Assembly: GCA_021846565.1 (NCBI GenBank)
Contig: JAJZWS010000004.1
Coordinates: 52,421 to 87,574 of the forward strand
DNA from: Bacillota bacterium
Lineage (GTDB): Bacteria; Bacillota; Sulfobacillia; Sulfobacillales; JAIMBI01
Direction: 5' to 3'
DNA length: 35,154 nt
Shown: one piece after another, positions 9,384 through 12,592 of the stretch
Layout of the letters: the number at the start of each line of letters is the position of its first letter
Numbering within the stretch: the stretch's first letter is position 1
Position numbers and translations under genes: made by a program
The notes under the pieces: generated by a model
The model's database searches: none
The model's input: the letters and a program-made list of their open reading frames with translations, nothing else
Told to the model about the DNA's origin: nothing

Positions 9384-9785
9384 TCAGACGAGGTCGAACG
9401 CGGCTGGGTCGTGGATGCGGTAGACCCCAAAGTCCGAGTCGAGGGTAAACACACGATGACAACCCGTGAACTCTGCCGCAGCGACGAGAGAGCCGTCGGC
9501 CAAACCCATCGGGGTGTCTTGGTATTTCGCCATCAGCACGTGCATGCGCGGCACAACCTCCTTAAGATCCACAACCTCTAGCCGTTCGCTCAGCACCAGC
9601 GCCCAAAGGTGGTGCTGACCCGCCCACCCGCCGGCACGATGCATCAGGTACATGGCCTCGGTGAGCACCGGCCACGTAGTGACCAAGCGCCCGGGCAGCA
9701 CGCCCAGCGTCTTTGCCACGCGGACATGGTCCGCCTCCCCGCGATCGAGAAGCGCCACCAAGGGGCCGGTATCAATCAGTGTCAT
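9384..9785 (-). CDS. PIN-domain ribonuclease toxin (VapC type)
   Basis: A 133-residue PIN domain with the expected acidic metal-binding residues: D5 (LIDTGPL), E43 (LTEAMYL), D97 (LADGSL) and D116/D118 (TLDSDFGVY). Family members cleave specific RNAs, commonly tRNA, when released from their antitoxin. The ATG at 9785 overlaps the end of the upstream antitoxin by 14 bases, the standard arrangement for coupled expression. Confidence 0.85.
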   Translation of the reverse strand: MTLIDTGPLVALLDRGEADHVRVAKTLGVLPGRLVTTWPVLTEAMYLMHRAGGWAGQHHLWALVLSERLEVVDLKEVVPRMHVLMAKYQDTPMGLADGSLVAAAEFTGCHRVFTLDSDFGVYRIHDPAAFDLV

Positions 9786-10032
9786 GCGTCTGCCGTCGCG
9801 GTTCGGCCGCTAGAAGCTCGCTGTATACGTTGTGCGCCATGCGCGCATGTCCGCCTTGGCTGTTGATGGCCCCAATGACGTCCTGCAGGCGGTCGGCCAG
9901 AGAGTCCGCCAACACCTCACGGCAGCGCGCCGCGACCGCACCGCGTACAAACTCCGACTCGGTCACGCCCAAGCGCTTCGCGGCCACGTTCAGATTGCGC
10001 TCCAGCGTCTCACCCAAGCGGACGCTTGTCAT
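9772..10032 (-). CDS. Ribbon-helix-helix antitoxin of the PIN toxin
   Basis: An 86-residue protein beginning MTSVRLGETLERNLNVAAKRLGVTESEFVRGAVAARCREVL, a MetJ/CopG-like ribbon-helix-helix fold. It should bind its own operator and neutralise the PIN toxin encoded just downstream. The ATG at 10032 has GGGGGAGG seven bases upstream. The C-terminal half (QDVIGAINSQGGHARMAHNVYSELLA) is the likely toxin-binding part. An upstream GTG would lie on the promoter and is rejected. Confidence 0.8.
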   Translation of the reverse strand: MTSVRLGETLERNLNVAAKRLGVTESEFVRGAVAARCREVLADSLADRLQDVIGAINSQGGHARMAHNVYSELLAAEPRRQTHDTD

Positions 10033-10051
10033 CGCGCCACCTCCCCCACGA

Positions 10052-10080
10052 ATTGTATGACACGTTAGTCCCCTCCCCAA
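10052..10080 (-). promoter_or_regulatory. Putative promoter of the VapBC-type pair
   Basis: On the minus strand TACAAT (10052-10057) is preceded, after 17 bases, by TTGGGG (10075-10080). The -10 matches five of six consensus bases, the -35 three of six. Confidence 0.45.
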
Positions 10081-10511
10081 TACGCCACGCAGCCCACTGC
10101 CACAGGCATCACCACGGGTTGCCCAGCAGAGGAGCTATCCACGGACCCGAATTGCAGGGATTTCGCGTGTCGGGTGCTCGCGTGGACGCTTCGGTCAGCG
10201 CATGCCCGGGGGTGCGCACTCCTTGACATGTCAGCGTCTGGGCTCGGGGTTGTTCGCTCGACGGGCGTGCGGGAGAGGAGTGGAGCGGCCGTTCGGCCGG
10301 CGCGCCATGCGCATCAGGTCCGCCACGCCCACCCCGCGCCGCGGGCGGTCCTGCAACCACACGCCCTTGCCCACGCGAGCGGCTTGGCGGTCGGACTCGT
10401 CTCAGCGGTGGCGACCGGGCTGTCCATTCACGCGGCGAACCGACCCTGCTCTTGCCCCAAGGGATGTCTACGCGTTAACCTTGATCAGACTTCGTTGGAA
10501 CATTTGGTTGC
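10081..10511. other. Gene-free leader region upstream of the MFS transporter
   Basis: No gene with a ribosome binding site is seen. A TTGACA at 10223-10228 has no matching -10. Close to the attenuator are a four-codon frame (ATG at 10464, reading M-S-T-R-stop, with AAGGG immediately before it, which is too close for an efficient site) and a second open frame reading ...LIRLRWNIWLRRR. Either could be a leader peptide; neither is proven. Confidence 0.4.
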
Positions 10512-10533
10512 GAAGGCGGATTCCGGCGCCTTC
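10512..10533 (+). promoter_or_regulatory. Antiterminator hairpin of an MFS attenuator
   Basis: GAAGGCG (10512-10518) is perfectly complementary to CGCCTTC (10527-10533), with an 8-base loop. The 3' arm is the same sequence that forms the 5' arm of the terminator at 10527-10549, so the two hairpins exclude each other. Confidence 0.6.
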
Positions 10534-10559
10534 CGCTTGGCGGAAGGTGGCGTTTTTTT
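10527..10559 (+). terminator. Intrinsic terminator directly before the MFS start codon
   Basis: CCTTCCGC (10529-10536) pairs with GCGGAAGG (10540-10547) across a TTG loop, extended by a G-T and a C-G pair, and is followed by seven Ts (10553-10559). The MFS ATG begins at the next base. The only ribosome binding site, AAGGTGG (10544-10550), is in the 3' arm, so folding would block both transcription and translation of the transporter. Confidence 0.75.
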
Positions 10560-11804
10560 ATGACATCCACGTTATGGCCCGCGTCTCGAGAATTCCATCG
10601 CCTGTTGCTGGCCGCGACCACGAGTCGCTTTGGGTCGGGTTTCTTCAACATCAGCGTCACCTGGCTCTTGTACGAGCGCACCCACTCGGTGATCCTCCTC
10701 GGGGCCCTGTGGGGCTCCTATATGGCCGTCGGCGGCCTGTTCCAAGTGGGGGTGACTCGGTACCGGCTCGAGCGCCGGAGGCCGATGGTTTGGCTCGCCG
10801 TCGCCGCAGGCATCGTCCTGCTGGCCCCGTCTCTCGCGGCATCCCTGGAGATATTCCGTGTATGGGAGCTCTGGCCGGTGTTTGTCCTGGTGGGGCTCGT
10901 CATTCGACCACTCAATGCCGGGGTCCAGTCCCTGGTGCCGAACTATGTTGAACCGGACCTCCGTCGGAGCGCCAATGCCCTCCTCGTGGGCGCCACCGAG
11001 GCCGCCGCCGTCGTAGGCCCGGTGGTGGCGGGCATCGTTATCGCGCGCGGGGGGGCCCTTAGCGGACTCGAAATCGACGCCGTCGGCGTTCTCACCACGG
11101 CCGTCATCTTGGCCACTTTGCCGAGGGTGCCTCAACCGGCCATCGGTCTCGGGCCCGGACACGCGGCGATCATAGCGGCCGGAGCCCGACGGATCTGGCG
11201 TCACCGAGTGGTGCGACGGGTGGTTGCCTTGGCCGTCGTGGCGGAGTTTACCGATTCGGCGTACGCCGTGTTGTCCGTTCCCCTGGTGATCCTGGTCCTG
11301 CACCAGACCCCGGCAGGATTGGGGCTCCTGGAGGGAGCCCTGTCGGCCGGCATGGTGATCGGCAGTGGGGTCGTGCGCCACATTCCCCGGACCATCCTGA
11401 TCTCCACGCGATGGTGGACCGTGGGGTTCTTCTGCTTGCTGTATGCCATCCTCACGACCGTCCCGAGCCTCTCCTGGATGATTCCCATACAGGGGGCGGC
11501 GGGAGTCACACTGGCCATCTTTCAGGTGGAGAGCCAGACACGACTGCAGGCGCTCGTGGACGGTGACTTTCTCGGAACCCTCTTGATGTGGCAGGAGGGC
11601 CTGTCCCGAGGGGGCGCCAAGTCCCTGGGGTCGATAGGCGTAGCGCTGCTGGCCGTCCAGGCGGGCATCCCCGGCGCGTTTGTGCTGTTCGGCATCCTGG
11701 GGGCCCTCGTGTCCCTATGGCCAGCTCTCGGTCTTAGGCGCATGGACGTCAAAGAGCAAAACTTGCGAGCGGACCAGCGCGCCAGGAACGCGCAGTGGCC
11801 CTAA
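10560..11804 (+). CDS. MFS transporter, probably a drug exporter
   Basis: A 414-residue protein with about 10-12 hydrophobic segments. The first is LLLAATTSRFGSGFFNISVTWLLYERTHSVILLGALWGSYMAVGG, typical of the N-terminal half of macrolide-exporter-like MFS proteins (a ...R.G..f..ia..WlvyelT.S pattern). The central loop and the C-terminal half are also membrane protein; the last 20 residues are polar. It starts with ATG at 10560 directly after a terminator T-tract. Control by an attenuator is typical of ribosome-targeting antibiotic resistance genes, which supports but does not prove an export role. The substrate is unknown. Confidence 0.8.
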   Translation: MTSTLWPASREFHRLLLAATTSRFGSGFFNISVTWLLYERTHSVILLGALWGSYMAVGGLFQVGVTRYRLERRRPMVWLAVAAGIVLLAPSLAASLEIFRVWELWPVFVLVGLVIRPLNAGVQSLVPNYVEPDLRRSANALLVGATEAAAVVGPVVAGIVIARGGALSGLEIDAVGVLTTAVILATLPRVPQPAIGLGPGHAAIIAAGARRIWRHRVVRRVVALAVVAEFTDSAYAVLSVPLVILVLHQTPAGLGLLEGALSAGMVIGSGVVRHIPRTILISTRWWTVGFFCLLYAILTTVPSLSWMIPIQGAAGVTLAIFQVESQTRLQALVDGDFLGTLLMWQEGLSRGGAKSLGSIGVALLAVQAGIPGAFVLFGILGALVSLWPALGLRRMDVKEQNLRADQRARNAQWP

Positions 11805-11841
11805 CCCTGATCCTGTTCCTATCAGCCGGCCTCCGTGCGCC

Positions 11842-11861
11842 GGGCCCCTGCGAAGGGGCCC
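11842..11861 (+). terminator. Perfect 8-bp hairpin after the MFS gene
   Basis: GGGCCCCT (11842-11849) and AGGGGCCC (11854-11861) flank a GCGA loop, 38 bases after the MFS stop. The stem is very stable but no U-tract follows. It may end or protect the MFS transcript. Confidence 0.4.
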
Positions 11862-11961: not shown

Positions 11962-12318
11962 TCAGGAGTCTGCTGCCTCAAGAACTTTGGCGAGGGTTGG
12001 GAGCTCTCCGGCGGTCAGGTCCCGCAAGACTTCGATCCGCGCCCGTGCGGTCTGGTGGACGGTAAACTGCTCCCGCTTTCCAATGGTCACGATGATCACC
12101 TCGGCCTTTGGCACGGCATAAATGACCCGCATCCGATGGCCGGCCCGGATGGAGTATCGCCCAAACAGGTTGATGCCGGCCCGCTTGCCCAGCGGGTCAC
12201 CATACTGATAGGGATCAGCTTGGACCCGCGCCAATGCGGATCGAACCTGGAGCTGAACACTGTGATCCAACTCCAGAAAATCACGTGCGGAGGCCGGCGC
12301 AAAGCACACGTCAGCCAC
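11962..12318 (-). CDS. RelE/ParE-superfamily toxin
   Basis: A 118-residue protein with the RelE/ParE-like core: FAPASARDFLELDHSVQLQVRSALARVQADPYQYGDPLGKRAGINLFGRYSIRAGHRMRVIYAVPKAEVIIVTIGKRE. The order helix-helix, then beta strands with GRYSIRAGHRMRVIY, matches toxins that cleave mRNA on the ribosome or act on gyrase. It starts with GTG at 12318, overlapping the stop of the upstream antitoxin frame by eight bases. After the core it has about 35 extra C-terminal residues. The toxin frame is intact although its antitoxin is interrupted. Confidence 0.78.
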   Translation of the reverse strand: MADVCFAPASARDFLELDHSVQLQVRSALARVQADPYQYGDPLGKRAGINLFGRYSIRAGHRMRVIYAVPKAEVIIVTIGKREQFTVHQTARARIEVLRDLTAGELPTLAKVLEAADS

Positions 12319-12592
12319 GCTGGCGATTCTCCACGTCGGCCCAGGGAATTCTGGTTTCGCCAGCCTGCCGCCACTCTTCCAGTTGCCTCAGCGCTACGAC
12401 CGTCCAGTAGAGATCTTCGGCCTCTGCCTCCAACTCCGCCAAGGTGCGGTACTGGCCGAAGTCCAAAAGGACACCCACTGGCTGCCCGTGCTCCGTGATC
12501 ACCACCGGCCCTTCTTAGCGGGCCGCTTTCATAATGCGTCCCGCACCACGCTGAAGTTCCGACAGGCGCACGCGTGGTCCTTCGTGCTCCAT
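12311..12592 (-). pseudogene. Phd/YefM-type antitoxin split by an in-frame TAA
   Basis: From the ATG at 12592, preceded by GGGAGGAG at a good distance, the frame reads MEHEGPRVRLSELQRGAGRIMKAAR, then TAA at 12515-12517, then EGPVVITEHGQPVGVLLDFGQY and on to the stop at 12311. Both halves together make one Phd/YefM antitoxin (DNA-binding N-terminus, then the conserved PVVITEHGQPVGVL strand, then the toxin-binding C-terminus), so a single sense codon has become a stop. GTG codons at 12505 and 12502 could restart translation of a 64-residue C-terminal piece that may still neutralise the toxin but would lack operator binding. A sequencing error is the main alternative. Confidence 0.72.

Follow-up and report, generated by a model that had tools for sequence, protein, structure and literature searches.

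A predicted terminator hairpin that adjoins the start codon and covers the Shine–Dalgarno sequence of an MFS transporter gene

Results

Genes and features at the locus

The 35,154-nucleotide stretch of DNA analysed here (hereafter the window) holds an MFS transporter gene (Table 1) whose product is weakly similar to TIGR00900 and EntS-like proteins, with scores far under the NCBIfam cut-offs; TIGR00900-type transporters form a broad group that includes the Mef macrolide pumps. The ATG at 10560 matches the N-terminus of homologs of ~40% identity, and no other ATG, GTG or TTG start fits. A pair of small minus-strand genes lies on either side (9384–10080 and 11962–12505), of which 9772–10080 (−) is weakly RHH_1-like and 11962–12318 (−) weakly ParE/YoeB-like; given these matches, toxin–antitoxin-like modules are possible on both sides of the MFS gene.

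Searching the 60 nearest genomes, 154 genomes of the class and the genome-contig collection identified a single ortholog (97.5% amino-acid identity), on JAJYPH010000122.1 of “Bacillota bacterium isolate DS3.bin47”. Divergence between the two is concentrated in two short blocks, 10090–10111 (a 14-nt indel) and 11764–11860 (a different gene 3′ end), which bracket a cassette that itself differs by ~2%.

Table 1. Coordinates of the features of the MFS leader, with those of another MFS leader family
Feature	Position	Strand	Remarks
Promoter-like region	10452–10480	+	TTGCCC-17-TTAACC in the window, TTGCCC-17-TAAAAT (9/12) in the ortholog; tentative
Possible anti-antiterminator hairpin	10490–10515	+	CTTCG 10490–10494 with CGAAG 10511–10515; weak
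Antiterminator hairpin	10512–10533	+	G10512–G10518 with C10527–C10533; identical in ortholog
Terminator hairpin	10524–10552	+	−21.3 kcal/mol; identical in ortholog
Shine–Dalgarno AAGGTGG of MFS gene	10544–10550	+	within terminator 3′ arm
T7 tract of terminator	10553–10559	+	read from sequence; abuts start codon
MFS transporter gene	10560–11804	+	414 aa; Pfam MFS_1
R1 leaders	L138–L152 and L154–L171 (18 genomes), e.g. L138:1370–1503		before MFS gene of 380–396 aa

No clear promoter for the leader was found in the window itself. The −10-like TAAAAT of the ortholog (10475–10480) would put the RNA start near 10487, downstream of the M-S-T-R frame discussed below; the window carries, on its + strand, 0.09 matches per kb that reach 9/12 or better, and three of the six SNPs of 10466–10494 sit in this hexamer. 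Farther upstream, at 10222–10232 (TTGACATGTCA), a −35-like hexamer without a mismatch overlaps a palindrome of 10 bp, TGACATGTCA, and the ortholog has the same sequence; no −10 partner was found for the hexamer, and the site is a possible operator.

The Shine–Dalgarno sequence lies within a predicted terminator that adjoins the start codon

Folding of the leader places a hairpin of 12 pairs and one mismatch immediately before the MFS gene (C10524–G10552, G10525–C10551, a G10526/G10550 mismatch, then 10527–10536 with 10540–10549), closed by a TTG loop at 10537–10539. The initial annotation had described a terminator with seven Ts adjoining the ATG, and this is borne out: the G+C-rich stem, short loop and T-rich tract within 0–2 nt of an intrinsic (Rho-independent) terminator are all present, and the tract runs into the ATG with no gap. 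The leader fold has a z-score of −2.1.

The same annotation had named AAGGTGG as the sole binding site and placed it in the terminator 3′ arm, and here too the calculation agrees, in that it is the gene's only good Shine–Dalgarno (SD) sequence. Its pairing energy with the anti-SD, −10.8 kcal/mol, is close to the strong quartile among 455 starts of the same genome (quartiles −11.3, −8.4 and −4.0 kcal/mol), and by the same measure no comparable site was found for any other start in 10440–10575. Within the terminator, 10544–10549 have an unpaired probability of 0.000–0.003 (paired at ≥ 0.99), with 10550 in the mismatch. A hairpin that acts as an off-switch, by stopping transcription at the start codon and hiding the ribosome binding site, looks real; the terminator is credible and its placement suggests regulation.

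A competing hairpin is present but less secure

The antiterminator proposed alongside this terminator is likewise present in the folds (7 bp, loop of 8, −11.2 kcal/mol), and the two hairpins are mutually exclusive in that both use 10527–10533. The antiterminator is modest and less secure than the terminator, being matched by chance at 2–9%: of the shuffled upstreams, 1.8% contain an exact 7-bp partner, and ~9% of shuffles, like ~9% of random genomic 46-mers, gain as much energy. Depending on the ends folded, the terminator state is 3–12 kcal/mol more stable, and when the antiterminator is forced the SD is only partly freed, being largely re-paired elsewhere in several contexts. The anti-antiterminator candidate, which competes with the antiterminator, is seen in folds of 10481–10551 and longer; G10494T in the ortholog breaks one of its pairs.

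Window and ortholog are identical over 10495–10765, with six SNPs in 10466–10494, and the two leaders, sequence-identical across both hairpins, offer no covariation of the arms. The ortholog apart, no further copy of the leader was found in the own genome or 60 relatives. No such hairpin occurs in the upstream sequence read for MFS paralogs and distant homologs (35–42% identity), and plasmids and MFS relatives at 35–42% identity gave no match or no comparable leader.

The junction is rare within the genome and recurs in the order

We found 162 sites combining a hairpin and a T tract in 939 kb (0.94 Mb) of the same genome, 46 of them intergenic (genes were called with a simple codon-usage script, so gene starts are approximate). 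The tail ends exactly on a start codon at two of these 46, the terminator described here and the pyrR leader, where translation more likely starts at a later ATG; two more sites lie close upstream of starts, in the thrS and pheS leaders, which look T-box-like when read by eye.

Across 61 genomes, a pattern search for the junction (SD-like AGGNGG, ≤ 4 nt, T6, ATG) returned 46 matches versus 15 for the reversed pattern, and many of them are plain SDs followed by a T-rich spacer, where no hairpin is present. Three matches with a hairpin follow SAM-I riboswitches (Rfam scores of 81–86 bits), at loci L110 and L128 (metY-like) and L123 (RuBisCO-like/mtnW-like; both labels are our reading of the proteins). 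At each, the SD sits in the 3′ arm of a terminator-like hairpin, followed by U6 and an ATG at 0 nt, so that from their sequences these leaders are apparent dual platforms for transcription and translation.

Two further hairpin matches (L117 and L118), with no match in Rfam, precede a different MFS gene, and tracing that gene gave 15 leaders. A covariance model of this group, R1, found 18 genomes of six genera in one family (f3) of the same order at 61–118 bits; a 19th match scored 29 bits. In 18 of 18 genomes the U-tract directly abuts the MFS start codon. A leader ORF is where expected in nearly all 18 (SD of −6 to −12 kcal/mol, mostly 11–21 codons), encoding for example MSLPLTIAQSPPRERSAQNSL or MFSPLMIDKAPPGERSARIPV and often M-F-S-P-L...P-P-R-E-R-S-A-R; starts were chosen automatically, so that the short peptides assigned to L159 and L171 are doubtful, and in L170 and L171 the frames after the start are short. 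A conserved block, GGGAGAGATCTGCC, is then followed by the terminator, CTCCCTCC...GGGGGG, and a GGGAG is able to pair with an upstream TCTCC or with CTCCC in the terminator; with hardly any variation in the arms, these pairs are not proven by covariation. A literature search joining Sulfobacillus (a guessed taxon) with attenuation and leader peptide found no paper, and R1 looks like an undescribed family of ribosome-mediated attenuators, judging by sequence. The window leader falls outside the R1 model (best 1.5 bits, E 0.86, versus 61–118 bits for the 18 clear matches). Behind SAM riboswitches, and in a leader-peptide family before another MFS gene, the junction suggests a recurrent design in the order.

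Leader frames of the window

Short frames in the leader had been put forward as peptides on which an antibiotic-stalled ribosome would throw the switch. This is not supported, because the frames are not conserved and have no good SD. The M-S-T-R frame loses both start and stop in the ortholog (ATG-TCT-ACG-CGT-TAA becoming ATC-TCG-ACG-CGT-AAA), and R-L-R there becomes R-L-L through G10494T; the R-L-R frame, without a good SD, meets its first stop no earlier than 10951 in the window, and an R-R-R in the same frame is kept in the ortholog. For short leader frames in the window no good SD was found, the best being −5.8 kcal/mol, at a TTG. The leader has neither the conserved SD-led short ORF nor the Arg/Lys-X-Arg/Lys arrest motif at the switch position that would define a ribosome-mediated attenuator.

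A long open frame at 10174–10563 (+) crosses the terminator, and its TGA (10561–10563) overlaps the MFS ATG, as ATGA, in both genomes; a U-UUU-UUA heptamer ends this frame. From the ATG at 10228 it has a strong SD-like match (spacing of ~13 nt) and spans the leader in both genomes, with a codon score of −0.12 per codon against 0.106 for the 5th percentile of genes, a non-coding value, and with mostly amino-acid-changing SNPs. We rejected a real gene at 10174/10228–10563 with translational coupling (non-coding codons, neutral-looking SNPs, no family) and a −1 frameshift at the heptamer, which is present but follows a frame that is not coding. A leaderless mRNA was also rejected, as the best promoter, TTGGCG-16-TATGAC, would start transcription at ~10571, past the ATG, as was a long structured leader from 10220, since structure before 10460 is no greater than in shuffles. 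With M-S-T-R and R-L-R lost, no useful SD and a non-coding ATGA frame, leader-peptide control is unlikely here on sequence grounds, although a leader peptide without an SD is conceivable.

No family of Rfam 15 reached its gathering score in the window, and at E up to 10 there was one chance match only in 10060–10600 (E = 9.8).

Discussion

A proposed default-off hairpin and its alternatives

We favour, at a probability of roughly 0.55, a default-off hairpin at which transcription ends, right at the start codon, and which masks the SD in any RNA that is read through; a signal would open it by way of the alternative hairpin. Computed results are the terminator, the placing of the SD, the hairpin that competes with the terminator, conservation in a single sister genome and the recurrence of the junction in the order; as to termination in vivo and regulated switching, we infer the following course. 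Transcription would begin upstream, perhaps near 10487 in the ortholog, and the RNA would fold into the strong terminator, whose U-tract meets the MFS start codon, such that most polymerases would release before the gene. In RNA that is read through, the terminator hairpin would cover the SD and translation would be lowered. The hairpin at 10512–10533, which forms earlier, would hold the terminator 5′ arm and thereby permit expression, were it stabilised or its competitor removed.

This reading is favoured because a strong hairpin, a T7 tract and an SD in its arm coincide, because 10495–10765 is identical whereas the 30 bases upstream hold six differences, and because the junction is rare in the genome yet recurs behind known or likely regulatory leaders of the order. 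It is weakened by resting on two near-identical genomes, by an antiterminator little above chance, by the lack of a recognised aptamer, an SD-led short ORF or a clear window promoter, and by MFS paralogs and homologs of 35–42% identity that are without such a hairpin. The attenuator reading of the initial annotation is supported in part, by the terminator, the SD placement, the exclusive hairpin and the recurrence of the junction; its leader peptide and antibiotic inducer are not supported.

The hairpin could instead be a constitutive throttle at which leaky read-through fixes a low level of expression; neither a signal nor a dedicated antiterminator would be involved, and the 7-bp hairpin would be incidental. 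The ~9% of shuffled or random upstreams that equal the antiterminator energy gain speak for this, as do Rfam scans and surveys of short SD-led leader frames that found no sensor, and a putative anti-antiterminator pairing that is weakened in the ortholog; the exact 7-bp partner is nevertheless present in just 1.8% of shuffles, and several comparable terminators shortly before genes of this genome and order are part of leaders that are regulated or probably so, such that we hold a throttle to be possible but rather unlikely. In an attenuator of the ErmK/MefA/BmrB/VmlR type, a ribosome that a drug stalls on a short leader ORF would free the antiterminator, and the gene itself fits such a scheme as a weak match to the TIGR00900 type, the broad group of the Mef macrolide pumps. 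In relatives, another MFS gene follows an SD-led leader peptide, and a frame (frame 1) crosses the terminator with its TGA overlapping the MFS ATG in both genomes, much as the bmrB terminator is also within a leader ORF (PMC4191407). Against this stand the unconserved M-S-T-R and R-L-R, short leader frames that all lack a good SD, the non-coding codon statistics and mostly amino-acid-changing SNPs of ORF 10228–10563, and the failure of the R1 model to match the window leader, which together make ribosome-mediated control improbable at this locus.

We give still less credence to a small, undescribed riboswitch, or a site for an RNA-binding protein, in ~10487–10523, with the hairpins as its expression platform. 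The ~35-nt tract feeding the hairpins is identical in both genomes bar G10494T, and the SAM riboswitches of the order share the junction; set against this, Rfam gave nothing up to E = 10, one chance match apart, the comparison spans two sequences, and no sign of an aptamer is seen past a weak fold. It is comparably far-fetched that the ~73-nt leader would be a very compact undescribed sensor (aptamer or protein site), its single hairpin both terminating and blocking the SD and the exporter’s substrate acting as inducer. Were the default-off hairpin to work as drawn, this lineage would need just one hairpin to control an uncharacterised exporter at the levels of transcription and translation alike. 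As the comparison set suggests a recurrent design in the order, orphan hairpins of such form can be used to find regulated genes that lack identified sensors.

Relation to known systems

Among neighbours in the order, the SAM-I platforms share with the window leader an SD in the hairpin 3′ arm, U6 and an ATG at 0 nt, and differ in carrying an Rfam-scored SAM-I aptamer, of which the window has none. R1 leaders resemble it in preceding an MFS gene, in the G-rich, SD-like 3′ arm of the terminator, in a U-tract at the start codon (18/18) and in competing GGGAG/CTCCC pairings; the SD-led leader peptide and the GGGAGAGATCTGCC block of R1 are both absent from the window leader, and the R1 transporter is of a different subfamily (24% identity to the window MFS, over a partial match).

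For the efflux genes mefA and bmrCD, attenuation works through drug-stalled ribosomes (PMC10314930, PMC4191407). In mefA–msrD and bmrB–bmrCD, as here, an intrinsic terminator precedes an efflux gene; those systems differ in having a translated leader peptide (MefAL, MTASMRLR, with the Arg/Lys-X-Arg/Lys arrest motif), whereas the window leader has an R-L-R that is lost in the ortholog and lacks an SD. Transcription and translation attenuation are combined in the vmlR leader of Bacillus subtilis (Takada et al, 2022, PMC9226507), and the likeness extends to a drug-resistance gene, a default terminator, overlapping antiterminator and anti-antiterminator, and a hairpin partly sequestering the SD. 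There, however, a uORF has its own SD, and the work is divided between SL-3, which terminates, and SL-4, which hides the SD (PMC9226507); in the window leader one hairpin would do both jobs, and no SD-led uORF was found. The kind of regulation is already known from vmlR, mefA and bmrCD.
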